From: Acidobacteriaceae bacterium
GTDB lineage: Bacteria; Acidobacteriota; Terriglobia; Terriglobales; Acidobacteriaceae
Length of the DNA stretch: 46,038 nucleotides
Assembly: GCA_030041515.1 (NCBI GenBank)
Contig: JASHNS010000090.1
Location: 1-46,038, forward strand
Direction of reading: 5' to 3'
Shown here: positions 39,697 to 46,038 of the stretch, one piece after another
How positions within the stretch are numbered: the first letter of the stretch is position 1
Layout: each line of letters opens with the position of its first letter
Notes under the pieces: model-generated
What the model was told of the DNA's origin: nothing
The model's input: the letters and a program-made list of their open reading frames with translations, nothing else
Databases searched by the model: none
Position numbers and translations under genes: made by a program

Positions 39697-40167
39697 TTGC
39701 GCACAGCGACACGTGACCGCCGGGTCATCAGCGAGGAAGAAAAAGAGGATCTGCGGCGGTTTTGGGGCCGTGTGGTCTTCGCGGTGGGAATGCTGGCGGG
39801 CATGTTTCCCATGGCCGTGCCGCCGCTGGCTGTTTCGAACCTTGGCGAACATACCGCGAGGCTGGAAGTGCTGGCACTGGTTGCGTTCTTGGTGTCGGTA
39901 CTGCCGGCGAGCATTCTCGCGTTCTGGCACAGGCGGGAGGCAACGGCGTGGCTGCTGCTGGCGGGTGTAGCGGCGATGGCGCTGGTGCTGACCGAGCAGC
40001 ATGTGCTCGCTGGGCGGGGCACAGCGCCGGATTATGGCAGCGATTATCTGTTCCTGATACCTCTGGCGCTGGGGATTTTTGGGATTGTGACGGAGTGGAT
40101 GGGCTGGCCGCCGCCGCTTCTCAGGCCACGTGACAGGAGGCGGGCTCAGCAGGACCTCGAAAGTTGA
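39697..40167 (+). CDS. Membrane protein, unknown function
   Basis: 156 residues starting at a TTG that has AGGAG 6 bp upstream. A charged N-terminus (RTATRDRRVISEEEKEDLRR) is followed by about four hydrophobic segments (29-48, 57-77, 84-98 and 115-130). The terminal part (RPRDRRRAQQDLE) is basic. No recognised family. Lies between a membrane-protein gene and glmU, 51 bp before the latter. Confidence 0.7.
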   Translation: MRTATRDRRVISEEEKEDLRRFWGRVVFAVGMLAGMFPMAVPPLAVSNLGEHTARLEVLALVAFLVSVLPASILAFWHRREATAWLLLAGVAAMALVLTEQHVLAGRGTAPDYGSDYLFLIPLALGIFGIVTEWMGWPPPLLRPRDRRRAQQDLES

Positions 40168-40218
40168 GCGCCGAGCACAGGACATTCGCGCAGCGATAGG
40201 AAAGGATTCTGAAGCGGG

Positions 40219-41628
40219 ATGCGACTGGGGATTCTCATCATGGCCGCGGGAAAAGGGACGCGGTTGAAATCGAAGCGGGCGAAAGTGCTGCACGAGATCG
40301 GGGGCAGACCGCTGCTGAGGCACGTGATCGGCGCCGCTGCGCAGTTGGTGCCGGCCCGCGACATTCTGGTGATCGTCGGACACCAGGCCGAGGCGGTTGA
40401 GTCCGCCGTGCGGGATACGGGCGTGCGTTTCGTGGTGCAGGAAAAACAGCGCGGGACGGGCCACGCGATTCAGTGCGCGGAGCGGGAAACGCGTGGCTAT
40501 GACATGCTGATCGTGCTTTCCGGCGACGTCCCGCTGCTGCGGGCCGAGACGATTGCGGCGCTCCGCGATTTTCATCTGAGCCAGCGCGCGGCAATGAGCA
40601 TCCTGACCGCCGAGGCAGCCAATCCCTTCGGTTACGGACGCGTGATCCGGCGTGAGGCCGGCGCGCCGGAAGTGGCTGCCATTGTTGAGCAGAAGGCGCT
40701 GAAGCCTGGGATGGAAGAAGTGCGCGAGATCAATTCGGGCATCTACGCATTTCGGCGAAAGGCGCTCTACGAGAACATCGGGCGGCTACGCGCCGAGAAT
40801 CCGCAGAAGGAGCTGTACCTGACGGATATGGCTCGCCTGCTGGCGGGTGGTGGGAAGCGCGTGGTGGCGATCGAAGCGGCGCAGCCCACGGAGGTGCTGG
40901 GTGCGAATACCATCGCCGAGATGATGGAACTGGATCGCGAGATGCGGCTGGCAGAAGCGAGGAGGCTCATGGCTGCAGGCGTGATTATCTTCCGGCCCGA
41001 GACGGTCACCATCGACGTTGGGGTGGAGGTGGGAGCGGACACGGTCATCGAGCCGTTTGTCCAGTTGCTGGGACAGACGAAGATCGGCGGGGACTGCCTG
41101 ATTCGGTCGTACTCCGTGGTCGAGAACGCGACGCTCGCCGATCGGGTGGTGGTGCGCCAGGGGTGTGTGGTGGCGGAGTCACAGATTGAAAAGGGCGCGC
41201 TGATCGGTCCTTTCGCGCACGTGCGCCCGGGATGTCACATTGGAGAGGACGCGCATATCGGAAACTTTGTCGAAACCAAGAAGACGCGGGTGGGCAAGGG
41301 CTCGAAGGCGAACCATCTGACGTATCTGGGCGACGCAGTGGTCGGAGCCGGAACCAACATTGGCGCGGGGACCATCACGTGCAACTACGATGGTGTGAAT
41401 AAGCACACGACGGTGATCGGAGATCGGGTATTCATCGGCAGCGACTCGGCGCTGGTAGCGCCGGTGATGGTCGGTGACGGCGCGTATGTCGGGGCGGGTT
41501 CGGTGATCACCGATGATGTGCCTGCCGACGCGCTCGCCGTGGGGCGCGGTCGGCAGGTGAATAAGCCGCAGTGGGCGAAAAACCGCCGTGCGCGAAAAGA
41601 GGCGCGAAAGCCCGGAAGCACAAACTAG
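40219..41628 (+). CDS. glmU: Bifunctional GlmU (GlcNAc-1-P uridyltransferase / GlcN-1-P acetyltransferase)
   Basis: 469 residues. The enzyme makes UDP-GlcNAc for peptidoglycan and lipopolysaccharide. The N-terminal uridyltransferase domain (about 1-230) has LIMAAGKGTRLKSKRAKVLH, the nucleotide-binding loop with the catalytic Arg and Lys (the usual PKVLH here reads AKVLH), and VLSGDVPLL with the metal Asp. The C-terminal acetyltransferase domain (about 250-455) is a left-handed beta-helix with hexapeptide repeats, ending in IGAGTITCNYDG and VFIGSDSALVAPV; His and Lys ligands for acetyl-CoA are in the usual places. The tail (KNRRARKEARK) is basic. Confidence 0.96.
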   Translation: MRLGILIMAAGKGTRLKSKRAKVLHEIGGRPLLRHVIGAAAQLVPARDILVIVGHQAEAVESAVRDTGVRFVVQEKQRGTGHAIQCAERETRGYDMLIVLSGDVPLLRAETIAALRDFHLSQRAAMSILTAEAANPFGYGRVIRREAGAPEVAAIVEQKALKPGMEEVREINSGIYAFRRKALYENIGRLRAENPQKELYLTDMARLLAGGGKRVVAIEAAQPTEVLGANTIAEMMELDREMRLAEARRLMAAGVIIFRPETVTIDVGVEVGADTVIEPFVQLLGQTKIGGDCLIRSYSVVENATLADRVVVRQGCVVAESQIEKGALIGPFAHVRPGCHIGEDAHIGNFVETKKTRVGKGSKANHLTYLGDAVVGAGTNIGAGTITCNYDGVNKHTTVIGDRVFIGSDSALVAPVMVGDGAYVGAGSVITDDVPADALAVGRGRQVNKPQWAKNRRARKEARKPGSTN

Positions 41629-41647
41629 AGAAGGAAAAAGCGAAGGC

Positions 41648-42181
41648 TCAGGCGGCCTGTTCGCCATCGTTGCGCAGAGCGGAGATCTCGGCACGGAGGC
41701 GCATGCGCGCCGTGAAGGAGGTGCGCAATACATCAGCCTTCGATTTCCCGAGCAGGTCGGCGACACGAGCTGCCGGATAGCCTTCGACATCCATGAGCAG
41801 GAAGACCAGGCGCTCGACCGGGGGAAGGCAGCGGATCGCCTCCTCGAGGTCGGTGCGCAGAATGTTGTGTCCCTGGGAAAGGCAATTGGCAGGGGGGACA
41901 GGTATGTGTTCGTCTTCCAGGGTAACGTGTTCCTGGAGCTGGTCGATCAGAGAGGCGTCGACGAGCGAACTGTCCGGTTCGTCGGCACGGCGGAAGGCGC
42001 GGATGAATGTGCCGCGGAGGATTTCCTCGGCGAGCATCTCGTTGCCGGTCATGTAAAAGGAGACTGAAAAGACTCGATGGCGATGGCTGTCGTAGACGTC
42101 GCGCTGCCTTTGCTCCAGCGGGCGAGGAGCCTCATGCCGCGCGGAGACCCGCGCACGAAGCTTGTCGAAGTCGAAAAGCAT
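41648..42181 (-). CDS. ECF-type RNA polymerase sigma factor
   Basis: 177 residues. Region 2 is recognisable in HRHRVFSVSFYMTGNEMLAEEILRGTFIRAFRR (the LAEEIL...FxRAF pattern), and region 4 in CLPPVERLVFLLMDVEGYPAARVADLLGKSKADVLRTSFTARMRLR, the helix-turn-helix that reads the -35 element. The linker between (residues about 66-105) is polar. No anti-sigma gene is next to it; glmU converges on it from the other side. Its regulon cannot be told from here. The start ATG lacks a well-placed Shine-Dalgarno site, so an alternative start is possible. Confidence 0.87.
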   Translation of the reverse strand: MLFDFDKLRARVSARHEAPRPLEQRQRDVYDSHRHRVFSVSFYMTGNEMLAEEILRGTFIRAFRRADEPDSSLVDASLIDQLQEHVTLEDEHIPVPPANCLSQGHNILRTDLEEAIRCLPPVERLVFLLMDVEGYPAARVADLLGKSKADVLRTSFTARMRLRAEISALRNDGEQAA

Positions 42182-42526
42182 GGCCGTAAGCCAGGACTCC
42201 CTGGGGAGAGAATACCCAGCAGGGGAAGAATAACACGCCGGGCTGGGAGAATGGATGCAAGGCAGCGCAAAGGGTTGGCGGCCGAGTTGGCGCGATTGGG
42301 ACCCGGAGTCGCCCTGTTAATTCAGAATGGACCACAGCCCCCAGGAAAACTCAGGAATTGTTGCTGCCGCGATCACAGCGCCAGGATACGATAGATCGGT
42401 ATTTGTACTTTTCGGTGAAACCGACGCGCCTGTACCCAGCGGGTTTGGTCGGCGGATTTGCGCCTAATGGTTCGGGACCCGAAGGAATGGGGGCCGAGCA
42501 CGCTGGTGGCGTGGTCAGGAGGACAG
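42182..42526. other. 345 bp divergent intergenic region between the sigma factor and the response regulator
   Basis: No supported gene. On the minus strand, TATTCT boxes upstream of the sigma factor could be -10 elements. On the plus strand, GGATACGATAGATCGGTATTTG at about 42387 could contribute a promoter for the response regulator, but no -35 box is convincing. Open frames here end early and lack coding character. Confidence 0.4.
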
Positions 42527-43633
42527 TTGGCGGCGGAGCGGATTCTGATCGTGGATGACGAGCCCTACGTTCGGACCCTCATGGCGGCCATGCTGGAGAA
42601 GTCGAATTACGCTCCCGTGCTGGCATCGAACGGCCTGGAAGCCATCGAGCATGTGGAGCACGATCCGCCGTACGACCTGATCCTCTCGGACATCGTGATG
42701 AACGGGCTGGATGGGATTGGGCTTCTGGAGCGGATCCGGGAACTGCAGCCCGACACGCCCATGGTGATGGTGACGGCGATCCATGACGTGGCTGTGGCCC
42801 TGTCGGCGATGCGAAAGGGCGCATACGACTACCTTTTGAAACCTTTTGAGAAGGAGCAGTTGCTGGTGACGGTGCGGCGCGCTCTGGATTACCGACGGCT
42901 CGTGCAGCAGAACTCGGTTTACCGGCACAATTTGGAACAGCTGGTTTCAGCGCGGACGGAGATGCTTCGGCAGGCGATGGCGGACCTGGAGCGCTCCTAC
43001 GACATCACGCTGGAGGCGCTGGGCGACGCGTTGGATCTGAAGGACGCGGAAACAGAAGGCCATTCGCGGCGAGTGACCGCCTATACCATCGCGCTGGCTC
43101 GGCACTGCGGGGTGGAACTGGCGCAGACGCGGGTGATTGCCCGGGGCGCATTCCTCCACGATATCGGAAAGATGGCGATTCCGGATGCGATCCTGCTGAA
43201 GCCGGGAGCGCTGACGCCGGAAGAGACGTCGATTATGCGCGAGCATTGTGCGCGGGGCTATCAGATCCTGCGCAAGATTCCCTTCCTCGAGGAAGCGGCC
43301 GAAATTGTTTACAGCCATCAGGAATTTTTCAATGGCAATGGCTATCCGCGGGGGTTGAGGGGCGAGGAGATTCCGCTGGGGGCAAGGATTTTCTCCGTGG
43401 CCGATGCCCTGGATGCGATCACATCGGATCGACCTTATCGTAAAGCGCGATCGTACTTGCTGGCGCGGAAGGAGATCGAGCGCTGTGCCGGTACTCAGTT
43501 CGATCCCTCGGTCGTCGAAGTCTTTCAGGAGCTGCCGGACAGTCTTTGGGAGGATCTGCGGGCGGAAATGACGCGGCATCCACGCTTTTCGCCGCTGTCG
43601 TTCGCCGGCGCTATCGAAGACCTCAAGGTTTAG
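42527..43633 (+). CDS. Response regulator with HD-GYP phosphodiesterase domain (RpfG-like)
   Basis: 368 residues from a TTG at 42527 with GGAGG 4 bp upstream; a GTG seven codons earlier is an alternative. The receiver domain (about 1-120) has phospho-acceptor Asp55 in DLILSDIVMNG and Lys105 in YLLKPFEKE. The HD-GYP domain begins at about 165; H211-D212 in FLHDIGKMAIPD is the HD pair. The GYP motif reads H264-Q-E-F-F-N-G-N-G-Y-P, where many homologues have HHExxDGxGYP, so the second His is Gln and the Asp is Asn. It would hydrolyse c-di-GMP on phosphorylation. No sensor kinase is adjacent. Confidence 0.92.
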   Translation: MAAERILIVDDEPYVRTLMAAMLEKSNYAPVLASNGLEAIEHVEHDPPYDLILSDIVMNGLDGIGLLERIRELQPDTPMVMVTAIHDVAVALSAMRKGAYDYLLKPFEKEQLLVTVRRALDYRRLVQQNSVYRHNLEQLVSARTEMLRQAMADLERSYDITLEALGDALDLKDAETEGHSRRVTAYTIALARHCGVELAQTRVIARGAFLHDIGKMAIPDAILLKPGALTPEETSIMREHCARGYQILRKIPFLEEAAEIVYSHQEFFNGNGYPRGLRGEEIPLGARIFSVADALDAITSDRPYRKARSYLLARKEIERCAGTQFDPSVVEVFQELPDSLWEDLRAEMTRHPRFSPLSFAGAIEDLKV

Positions 43634-43675
43634 CGTGCTATTTGCCCCGGAAACTTCAACAGAGGAGGGTTCGCG

Positions 43676-43954
43676 ATGCCCCTGCTGGATGATCGAACGG
43701 TTGCGTCGAAGTTGAAGGCGTTGCCTCAATGGAAGCTGGAGGGAGGTGAACTCGTGCGCCGATCCGAGTTTCCGAGCTTCGTGGAGGCGATGCAGTTCGT
43801 GAACCATGTGGCGGAGCTGGCCGAGGGCGCCGGACACCACCCGGACATCGACATCCGCTACAACAAAGTGCGCCTGGGTCTGGTAAGCCACGACGCCGGA
43901 GGCCTGACGGACCGAGACTTCGATCTGGCGGCAGGGATTGATGGACTCGAGTGA
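43676..43954 (+). CDS. phhB: Pterin-4a-carbinolamine dehydratase
   Basis: 92 residues, the usual size. GAGGAGG precedes the ATG. The signature is present: EGAGHHPDIDIRYNKV (the HHP pair and aromatic) and the later HDAGGLTDRDFDLA (His and Asp). It dehydrates 4a-hydroxytetrahydropterin for recycling after aromatic amino-acid hydroxylases. No phenylalanine hydroxylase is adjacent. Confidence 0.95.
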   Translation: MPLLDDRTVASKLKALPQWKLEGGELVRRSEFPSFVEAMQFVNHVAELAEGAGHHPDIDIRYNKVRLGLVSHDAGGLTDRDFDLAAGIDGLE

Positions 43955-44011
43955 AGCGTCACGCTGTGGAATCGCACAGGAGCGGACGGACGCGTGCGGC
44001 CCATACGCAAC

Positions 44012-44236
44012 TTAATCGTCCGTGTTTTCGTCCATGTTCTCGTCTTCCGGAGGTAAGGAGGCCTGAGAAGGTCTGGACCCGGTCTGGCGCAGTTTCGCCA
44101 GGGATTTGCGATCCCATAAGGCCACCGCTACGCCACCAAACAGGGCTGATCCTGCAACCAGGAGGCCTGCGCCCAGGTAGCGCAGACCTCGCGGGGGAAA
44201 AGGCGATTTCCGGGAGGAACGGGCAGAGTCAGACAT
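44012..44236 (-). CDS. Small single-helix membrane protein
   Basis: 74 residues from the ATG at 44236. A basic N-terminus (SSRKSPFPPRGLRYL) precedes one hydrophobic segment (AGLLVAGSALFGGVAVALW, about 21-40). A polar tail ends in acidic residues (PPEDENMDENTDD). The C-terminal acid stretch and single helix suggest an inner-membrane anchor. No ribosome-binding site is clear, so confidence is moderate. Function unknown. Confidence 0.5.
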   Translation of the reverse strand: MSDSARSSRKSPFPPRGLRYLGAGLLVAGSALFGGVAVALWDRKSLAKLRQTGSRPSQASLPPEDENMDENTDD

Positions 44237-44397
44237 GCTTGCAATAATTTCAGCCGTGCAAGCTACGAGTGTACATCCAGGGGCTTGTGCGAAATGCAAA
44301 TCCGATATACGCTATTTTGTAGAGACGGGAAGAGAGATATTCTGAAAATTAAATCGCACCGCCCAGCCGGAGCGAGCATCACAAAGAGTGATGAGGT
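44237..44397. other. Intergenic stretch upstream of the candidate small-RNA promoter
   Basis: No coding sequence supported. A perfect hairpin CATCAC-AAAGA-GTGATG occupies 44377-44393. A weak alternative plus-strand promoter is TTGTGC (44285) with TACGCT (44308), which would give a longer transcript of about 190 nt running to the same terminator. Confidence 0.35.
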
Positions 44398-44427
44398 TTG
44401 ACAAGAGCCGGACAGAAATGAGATAAA
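44398..44427 (+). promoter_or_regulatory. Promoter with consensus -35 box
   Basis: A perfect TTGACA at 44398-44403 is followed after 18 bp by GATAAA at 44422-44427. Transcription would begin near 44434, pointing into a region with no reading frame but a strong terminator. Confidence 0.5.
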
Positions 44428-44433
44428 CAGCCG

Positions 44434-44507
44434 GTTCGGAAGAGTTTATAAGTTGCGTCACTGGCCTCCCGGCACGAACATAAAACCGTTCGTGCCGTCT
44501 TTTTTTG
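44434..44507 (+). ncRNA. Candidate small RNA, about 74 nt
   Basis: The segment between a TTGACA promoter and a strong intrinsic terminator has no open reading frame with a ribosome-binding site. The transcript would have an unpaired AU-containing 5' half (CCGGTTCGGAAGAGTTTATA at its start) and a 9-bp terminator stem, the usual layout of bacterial trans-acting small RNAs. It might instead be a terminated leader of the following gene. No known RNA family is recognised. Confidence 0.4.
44471..44507 (+). terminator. Strong rho-independent terminator
   Basis: GGCACGAAC (44471-44479) pairs perfectly with GTTCGTGCC (44488-44496), 9 bp with an 8-base loop, followed by GTC and a run of seven T, then GC and six more T. 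It is active only on the plus strand, since the other side has no T-run. It is the clearest terminator in the window. Confidence 0.9.
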
Positions 44508-44593
44508 CTTTTTTCAGGCCAGGGGCCCCCTGGACGGCCCCCAACGTCACTCTGCCTCCAGGATTGCTACCATAAGAGCGCGGAGGATCCCCA

Positions 44594-45079
44594 GTGAAGC
44601 GAGCTGCTTCCAGTTTGGCTCTGGCGCTACTCATCGTGGCTGCCTATGCGGTGCCGGTGAGCACGTCGAAATTGCCTGCGGTTCACGCGCAGTGGTCGAA
44701 TCCGAACAGTGACGTGCCGCCGTACCATAGCGGTCCGCCGGCCCCTGGGCAGGCGCTGCCGCCCATCCTGCATGGCAGCCAGCTCACCGGCCCGTTTTTC
44801 CAGAAGGGCTGGCAGGTCGCGGTCTATAGGGAAGCGGCACAAATTCCCGGAGTGCTCTATCAGCTTCCATGTCTTTGCGGGTGCGAGCGGGGGCTGGGGC
44901 ACACCAGCCTGCACAGCTGTTTTGAAGGGACTCACGGGGCGATCTGCGACACCTGCGCAGCGGAGGAAGCCTACGCTTACCGGATGACGAAGCGCGGATG
45001 GAGCGTGCAGCAGATCCGCAGTGGGATTGAACACCACGCGTACGCATCCATCGACCTGAACAAGCTGGGGCAGAACTGA
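44594..45079 (+). CDS. CYCXC-family exported protein
   Basis: 161 residues. The start is a GTG with GGAGG 7 bp upstream. A signal peptide (MKRAASSLALALLIVAAYAV) precedes a Pro-rich linker, and the family core follows: LPCLCGCERG (C93, C95, C97, the C-x-C-x-C motif), then HTSLHSCF and CDTC (C109, C118, C121). The NCBI family name I recall is CYCXC (seleno)protein because some members have selenocysteine; here all positions are Cys. The cysteine set suggests binding of a metal such as copper or a redox role in the periplasm, neither proven. Follows the candidate small RNA by 86 bp. Confidence 0.82.
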   Translation: MKRAASSLALALLIVAAYAVPVSTSKLPAVHAQWSNPNSDVPPYHSGPPAPGQALPPILHGSQLTGPFFQKGWQVAVYREAAQIPGVLYQLPCLCGCERGLGHTSLHSCFEGTHGAICDTCAAEEAYAYRMTKRGWSVQQIRSGIEHHAYASIDLNKLGQN

Positions 45080-45108
45080 GGCGGGCCGCTTCGGGACCGG
45101 GAAGGCAC

Positions 45109-45717
45109 GTGCGGGGACTCCTGCTGGGCCTGGCGGTGCTGGTCTGCGCGGGACCTGGTGCCGCGGTCGCGGCTACCGGCGTCCCGTCCCGGCCAGCCGG
45201 ACCGTACGTGATGCCCTGCGCGGGGGTGACGCTGACCGCGAGCTATCTGGGCGATGTTTCCGGGCGCGGGCCGGGGTTCCTGTTCAGCATTGAAAATCGC
45301 ACCCCGCGCGCCATCCACCTTGAGGATCCCGTGCCCTCCAGCACCCACTGGTATGCGCAGGTGGGGAATCGCTGGATGTGGCGGGCCTCGGCCGGGTGGG
45401 GCGGCGCTCTGGTGAATGCTGAAGATCCGCACGGCAGGATGTTCGCCTACCGGCCTTCGAAGCCGCGACCTCACCCGCGCTACAAGTCGGTTCCCGCCCA
45501 CGGCTCGCTGCAGTGGACCGAAGCGATGCGGGACGATCCCTCCATCGCCTATCAACCGAGCTGTCCCATGTGCCGCTATCAGGGCGAAACGGTGTACCAG
45601 GCAGTCTTCGCGTATGCGTACCTGCCCGCTCCGGGCGAAAAGGCGCCGAATCTGCTGCATTGCGGGTTGCGTTCGGCCCCTGTGCCGATGCCGCCTCACG
45701 CTGCGGCTGCGCCCTGA
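45109..45717 (+). CDS. Exported protein with CxxC motif, unknown
   Basis: 202 residues. The start is a GTG; GGGAAGG stands close before it. A signal peptide (RGLLLGLAVLVCAGPGAAVA) leads to a mature domain with PSCPMCRYQGE (C-x2-C), two further Cys (VMPCAGV and LLHCGLR) and several Trp/Tyr segments. I recognise no family. It lies 29 bp after the CYCXC gene on the same strand, so co-transcription is likely and a shared periplasmic metal or redox role is an inference. Confidence 0.7.
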   Translation: MRGLLLGLAVLVCAGPGAAVAATGVPSRPAGPYVMPCAGVTLTASYLGDVSGRGPGFLFSIENRTPRAIHLEDPVPSSTHWYAQVGNRWMWRASAGWGGALVNAEDPHGRMFAYRPSKPRPHPRYKSVPAHGSLQWTEAMRDDPSIAYQPSCPMCRYQGETVYQAVFAYAYLPAPGEKAPNLLHCGLRSAPVPMPPHAAAAP

Positions 45718-45832
45718 GCGGGATTTTTCCCTCGCATGTGCATCCTGGCCGTCCCAGGAACCGTCTCTCGCTCAAACCTCCGGGAGCCGGTCGGAATTCC
45801 GGCCGACTTCCGGGGGATGACGGAGAACTCGA

Positions 45833-46038
45833 ATGCGGAAAATCACGACGATGCTCGCGCTGGCCGGTTTGCTGGCGTTGTGCGCGGGCCCGGCAGCACA
45901 GGCGCAGTATGGCAGCAGCGGCGGCGGCGGACATCGGCAGCACAGGATGGATCCCGATGCGCAATTGCAGCGAATGACGACGCAACTGGGATTGAGCGCC
46001 GACCAGCAGAGCCAGATCCGGCCGATTCTGGTGGACCG
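45833..46038 (+). CDS. Spy/LTxxQ-like periplasmic protein, N-terminal part (cut by window end)
   Basis: At least 68 codons from the ATG at 45833, with GGAGAA upstream. A signal peptide (MRKITTMLALAGLLALCAGP) ends near AQAQ. A Gly/Ser/His-rich segment (YGSSGGGGHRQHR) follows, then LQRMTTQLGLSADQQSQIRPIL, in which the LTxxQ-like motif is LGLSADQQ, typical of Spy/CpxP-like helical chaperones. The rest lies outside the window. Spy-like proteins protect folding in the periplasm under stress. It stands 115 bp after the CxxC protein gene. Confidence 0.7.
   Translation, partial: MRKITTMLALAGLLALCAGPAAQAQYGSSGGGGHRQHRMDPDAQLQRMTTQLGLSADQQSQIRPILVD

Follow-up and report, generated by a model that had tools for sequence, protein, structure and literature searches.

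Using a stretch of 46,038 nucleotides from an Acidobacteriaceae bacterium (the window), we found that the interval 44320-44506 on the plus strand belongs to a conserved small-RNA gene family of the Acidobacteriaceae, which has no Rfam family at threshold and whose expression is predicted from the sequence. The family is directly supported by its conservation, by covariation in its terminator, by promoter-like motifs and by gene neighbours that change from genome to genome. Our preferred reading, to which we give a probability of about 0.55, is a stand-alone gene for a trans-acting RNA whose CCUCC seed masks Shine-Dalgarno (SD) sites.

The family was delimited by DNA, covariance-model and pattern searches. 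We searched 61 genomes with the DNA of 44340-44600 and obtained one match each in 18, namely in all 12 members of the genus (the window's own genome included) and in 6 of 25 genomes from other genera of the family, with none in 14 genomes of another family of the order or in 10 from elsewhere in the class. The first covariance model, which covers the 3' 60 positions and was built on these 18 genomes, had a match at E <= 0.01 in 64 of the 150 genomes searched from the family. Of these matches, 50 were strong, with E <= 1.2e-9, and the other 14 weak, none of them with an E better than 3e-4. With a second model, built from 57 members, 59 of 299 class genomes were matched at E <= 1e-5, and 58 of these belong to the Acidobacteriaceae; the one match outside the family is partial and lies at a contig end, in a genome that is 80% complete with 6% contamination. 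The same model matched 21 of 247 genomes from the phylum, all 21 within the family. Moreover, a pattern scan of named genomes returned at least 118 stretches, 80 of them among the matches listed. Carriers among the matches listed are Terriglobus roseus, Edaphobacter, Granulicella, Terracidiphilus and Silvibacterium as well as many Acidobacteria MAGs. Two contigs assigned to Rhodanobacteraceae and Verrucomicrobia were taken as misbinned, because they show the same gene neighbourhood as the other loci. On viral contigs a single exact 17-mer turned up, which has no T-run and was taken as chance despite a model score of 23.1 bits. For comparison we used 120 loci (40 plus 80 from named genomes), or 109 once identical cores had been removed; these 109 loci are related to one another and counts over them are not independent.

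The 3' end of the RNA would be formed by an intrinsic terminator, a stem-loop of 10 pairs with an 8-nt loop (44470-44497, plus strand) followed by a T-rich run (44498-44506). The initial annotation had ranked it among the clearest in the window, and it does have the most pairs of the six candidates in 40000-46038, with a stem that covaries across 57 genomes. Six candidates are little above the number expected by chance (4.0, sd 1.6, in shuffles), and we therefore judge the terminator to be real on account of its conserved and covarying stem. Across the sequences from 57 genomes 99.6% of the stem's cells are paired and two-sided changes occur at 8 of the 10 pairs, compared with 1.4 in shuffles, in an alignment that was fitted to structure and hence leans towards the terminator stem. 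An intrinsic terminator of its own that is under selection is expected of a stand-alone small-RNA gene, and such a terminator was found here. The initial annotation had also suggested a covariance search against Rfam and a comparison of related Acidobacteria; the second brought out the conserved stem with its compensated pairs, while the first gave no match at threshold. No family of Rfam 15 was matched at threshold in the whole window, two eukaryotic families far below threshold were all that a loose search of 44200-44700 returned, and among the loci of 15 relatives tmRNA alone reaches threshold. Shortly past the T-run and before the next gene lies a second G+C-rich inverted repeat, GGCCAGGGGCCCCCTGGACGGCC, at 44517-44539.

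Directly adjoining the terminator stem is a stretch of 17 nt, TTGCGTCACTGGCCTCC (44453-44469, plus strand), which contains an anti-Shine-Dalgarno-like CCTCC and which we propose as the seed. It is identical in 108 of 109 loci, the sole deviating locus having CATCC, a single change, and it is unchanged in 60 of 61 representatives. Since the scan that supplied 80 of the 120 initial loci (before deduplication) used a pattern that contains TTGCGTCACTGGCCTCC, an unbiased figure comes from the aligned genomes that DNA or model searches had recovered; there the stretch is unchanged in 56 of 57. The seed is frozen while the adjoining stem covaries, which suggests selection on the letters of the seed and mainly on the shape of the stem. 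A stretch frozen over 17 nt across many genera also implies that the RNA does something constrained. The seed has a mean unpaired probability of 0.52, compared with 0.40 when the 5' parts are shuffled (70 loci; kinship ignored), and is predicted to be largely paired in the fold of the window's own full-length RNA. In one locus (L148), AGTTTATAAGTTGCGTCACTGG is tandemly repeated immediately before an intact seed.

A probable promoter precedes the RNA. It consists of a -35-like box TTGTGC (44285-44290, plus strand) and, 17 nt past it, a -10-like box TACGCT (44308-44313, plus strand). Of the 12 genus members, all have TACRST and 11 have TTGYRY; in the remaining one (L006), which lacks TTGYRY, the corresponding stretch contains a gap and two masked bases. 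More widely, 20 of 108 loci have TTGnnn-N17-TA[CT]nnT at 95-175 nt before the seed (1.0 expected) and 46 of 108 have an extended -10 element (TGnTATnnT) at 40-110 nt before it (4.9 in shuffles); among the 61 representatives the counts are 14 against 0.6 and 21 against 2.6, respectively, for motifs that were picked after the sequences had been seen. With a general promoter weight matrix the loci could not be told apart from shuffles (7 of 108 exceeding the 95% level of the null), and the support for a promoter hence comes from the aligned specific motifs. A promoter of its own, likewise expected of a small-RNA gene, is thus indicated by conserved motifs in excess of shuffles. Transcription most likely starts near 44320, about 7 nt past the -10 box, from a sigma-70-like promoter; together with the terminator this gives the predicted RNA of about 187 nt (44320-44506). 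Among 70 loci with a guessable start the predicted length is 85-214 nt with a median of 120, while 39 gave none.

The fold z-score of 44322-44508 is -3.5, and the consensus fold of the 12 genus rows has two pairs within the seed and a short stem upstream, besides the terminator. Between promoter and seed, a GCATC element is kept in all 12 genus members, and we take it to resemble an ECF -10 box. An ECF-sigma promoter starting from GCATC was considered by reading the alignment and set aside, as the TTGTGC/TACRST pair is better kept. There is no sign of a conserved reading frame: the distances from seed to T-run fall in all three phases (55, 39 and 15 loci), and when the seed is taken with 60 nt upstream, the three frames are open in 44, 56 and 27 of 108 loci, respectively, none of them in all loci.

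Taken together, we infer that RNA polymerase would start near 44320 and stop at the terminator, at 44506, yielding an RNA with a fast-changing 5' part, the invariant 5'-UUGCGUCACUGGCCUCC-3' and a terminator kept in shape more than in sequence. The invariant, putatively single-stranded stretch of 17 nt makes pairing with the ribosome-binding sites of other genes' messages probable, and it may thus serve a trans-acting regulator as seed. With its CCUCC end, the stretch would pair with the Shine-Dalgarno GGAGG of several mRNAs and a few flanking bases, and this pairing would block ribosome entry and lead to repression. Hfq possibly assists the pairing. The window's genome has two matches to Hfq, and the protein is encoded in 148 of 150 family genomes, equally in carriers and in non-carriers of the RNA.

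With the patterns tried, the searches brought out no target. Within its own genome, long complements of the seed were limited to the seed itself and three sites with three mismatches, compared with one for the reversed control. Complements of 16 nt with up to two mismatches were not enriched: 100 family genomes had 322 of them and 297 matches to the reversed control. For 32 carriers the figures are 137 and 96, the former falling to about 105 when one self-match per carrier is subtracted. GGAGGCCAG before an ATG was found 117 times in 12 carriers and its reverse 42 times, the control being unmatched for SD and start context. Among the 110 SD-context loci examined, from which six rows of one genome (G161) were left out, no orthologous start recurred across genomes. 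Two pairs among them encode homologues at the site; in one pair these are paralogues from a single genome, and in the other the sites fall within long frames. An open frame of at least 60 aa follows in 40 of 113 site-to-ATG combinations, 18 of these 40 being near a frame start. Three frames have GTAGGAGGCCAGCATG at their start in common, nine letters of which, GGAGGCCAG, are complementary to the seed; two of these frames are paralogues in G161 (L252 and L350), and the third, from the window's genome (L327), is unrelated to them. The gene downstream of the RNA was also tried as a target and rejected: its start region in the window, GGAGG-4 nt-CCAGTGA, complements the seed in two pieces, but this is shared by the nearest relatives only. 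Short SD pairing would not require an invariant stretch of as many as 17 nt, which counts against our preferred reading.

An alternative is that the RNA is regulatory and that its invariant stretch binds a protein or rRNA, for example 16S around GGGAGGCAGCAGU, instead of mRNAs. Such a partner would account for the invariance of 17 nt in the face of no detectable long mRNA complements. Moreover, the seed pairs with two 16S segments at -28.2 kcal/mol, and few shuffles are as good (for the two 16S genes used, 8 and 6 of 300 dinucleotide shuffles and 11 and 4 of 300 when mononucleotides were shuffled). However, the 16S signal is weak and comes from one among several partners tried, and tmRNA gave no signal, a mean of 0.63 of 60 shuffles being as good for 30 of 46 tmRNAs. 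To our knowledge, the 16S segment around GGGAGGCAGCAGU is near-universal in bacteria, whether they carry the RNA or not, which also speaks against rRNA. A search for the 16S gene had no match in the window's own assembly nor in that of another genome (G028). Overall, we regard a protein or rRNA partner as rather unlikely. It appears improbable that the seed acts on the translation machinery itself, through 16S rRNA pairing or genome-wide SD recognition, and not on a few mRNAs.

The gene downstream of the RNA (44594-45079, plus strand) encodes a PCYCGC-domain or CYCXC family protein (PF13798, 2.1e-07; NF041379, 6.8e-27), which by eye is exported. NF041379 is described as a CYCXC family (seleno)protein, and the motif of the window's protein is all cysteine (LPCLCGC). 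Of 109 loci, 79 have a homologue downstream, always on the strand of the RNA (79 of 79), and in 70 of them it lies within 650 nt. This arrangement would suit a leader or attenuator of the CYCXC gene, in which the terminator halts transcription unless a signal prevents it. Against this stand 28 loci with at least 700 nt of downstream sequence and no CYCXC homologue (two further loci are truncated) and nine in which the gene is 1.3-1.8 kb away, so that the RNA does not need the CYCXC gene. The gene has a probable promoter of its own, with a -10-like box TACCAT placed by eye at 44568-44573 (plus strand), and TAnnAT occurs between terminator and CYCXC gene in 41 of 68 adjacent loci, compared with 8.2 expected. 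Finally, the 12-row genus consensus fold contains no antiterminator. We therefore consider an attenuator to have little probability. The initial annotation had left open whether the locus is a small RNA or an attenuator: the small RNA has gained from its conservation and covariation, from matching strongly once per genome and from the variation of its neighbours, while the attenuator is weakened by the loci that lack the CYCXC gene. The sequence comparison disfavours an attenuator and portrays the RNA as a stand-alone gene in a partly kept neighbourhood, with no obligatory role as CYCXC leader.

On the other side, 68 of 109 loci have a gene for pterin dehydratase, typically upstream and in 67 of them on the same strand as the RNA. 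The RNA might hence be a 3' processing or read-through product of an upstream mRNA, that is a 3' UTR-derived small RNA. In the window, however, an opposite-strand gene intervenes, and the conserved promoter-like pair precedes the RNA, so that we hold such an origin to be very unlikely. The intervening gene (44012-44236, minus strand) was correctly described before as a neighbour on the opposite strand; its product, 74 residues long, is a small protein in which a hydrophobic stretch can be made out by eye and which has no Pfam or NCBIfam match. Homologues of this neighbour, present in 39 of 109 loci, are divergent to the RNA in 39 of 39.

Another neighbour is the tmRNA gene, which lies downstream of the RNA in 46 of 109 loci (L050-L171), on the same strand in 46 of 46 and sometimes directly adjoining; the window's genome has it on a different contig. 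We examined what surrounds the tmRNA gene in 18 genomes that lack a strong model match (tmRNA over the cut-off in 17) and in two genus members. Within about 1.5 kb per side (less in some), no homologue of the CYCXC, pterin dehydratase or HD-GYP genes was found there, and seed-like stretches with up to four mismatches occurred in 3 of 19 of these tmRNA loci, none with a T-run within 45 nt. In 8 of the 109 RNA loci the nearest downstream frame belongs to one group (c18) on the opposite strand, by a rough choice of ORFs that includes shadow frames.

The initial annotation had proposed an RNA of about 74 nt, starting from TTGACA (44398-44403) and GATAAA (44422-44427). The boxes with their 18-nt spacer, the terminator and the gene-free interval are all present as it described them. 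An RNA of about 74 nt is nevertheless highly improbable, since the boxes (44398-44427, plus strand), which are shared by the window and its two nearest relatives, a subclade of three species, are missing in 9 of 12 genus members, whose stretch reads differently in the alignment, and in 105 of 108 loci. On this pattern of conservation the pair is rejected as the main start, a consensus promoter scan does not list it among its candidates, and the better conserved promoter-like pair, which begins 113 nt upstream of the TTGACA box, makes the larger RNA the probable product. At best, TTGACA-N18-GATAAA may be a secondary promoter giving a subclade-specific second start. The proposed -10 box is carried by a possible inverted repeat, GAGCCGG...CCGGTTC (44405-44437, plus strand), of which four inner positions are paired in the 12-member genus consensus fold and broken in at most 2 of 12 rows; it shows no two-sided change among the 12 members and is absent from single-sequence folds of the window's RNA.

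Acidobacteria are abundant in soil, and few sRNAs have been annotated in them. A table in a review from 2022 gives four distinct annotated sRNAs for the whole phylum (PMC9029176, table as seen in part). In the accessible parts of a Granulicella transcriptome paper (PMC7074687), we found no mention of sRNA, small RNA, non-coding or ncRNA, and in those of a Solibacter paper (PMC3174227) sRNAs are mentioned in one figure legend. In the portion of the open-licence literature covered, no study of a small RNA in Acidobacteriaceae was found. The family is defined well enough for tests in cultured carriers such as Terriglobus roseus and Edaphobacter, with an exact seed to mutate. Finding the partners of the RNA would open up post-transcriptional control in Acidobacteriaceae.

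In the trans-acting RNAs Qrr and RsaE, a conserved single-stranded seed serves several mRNAs and the RNA ends in an intrinsic terminator. The RNA described here shares a conserved, putatively single-stranded seed and an intrinsic terminator with small RNAs of this kind, and differs in having no Rfam family at threshold. Acido-1 (RF01686) and Acido-Lenti-1 (RF01687) are likewise non-coding RNA candidates from Acidobacteria, according to the part of the report consulted (PMC2864571). The thresholds of both models were reached neither by the window nor by the loci of 15 relatives, and both are absent from the loose search of 44200-44700.

As far as the source was available to us (PMC10746234), the closest parallel is NfeR1, of the alpha-r14 family of rhizobia, in which ultraconserved CCUCCUCCC motifs block a ribosome-binding site. 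NfeR1 has three hairpins, each with CCUCCUCCC, whereas the Acidobacteriaceae RNA has one invariant 17-nt stretch beside its terminator; CCUCCUCCC is absent from the predicted RNA. A second CTCC is found in the 5' part of the Acidobacteriaceae RNA in 32 of 70 loci, compared with 17.0 expected, and its carriers belong to another phylum than those of NfeR1. Common to both is an ultraconserved anti-SD motif of the CCUCC type, unpaired in NfeR1, next to stems that vary (PMC10746234, in part). NfeR1 acts in trans, and the same mode of action is proposed here for the Acidobacteriaceae RNA.
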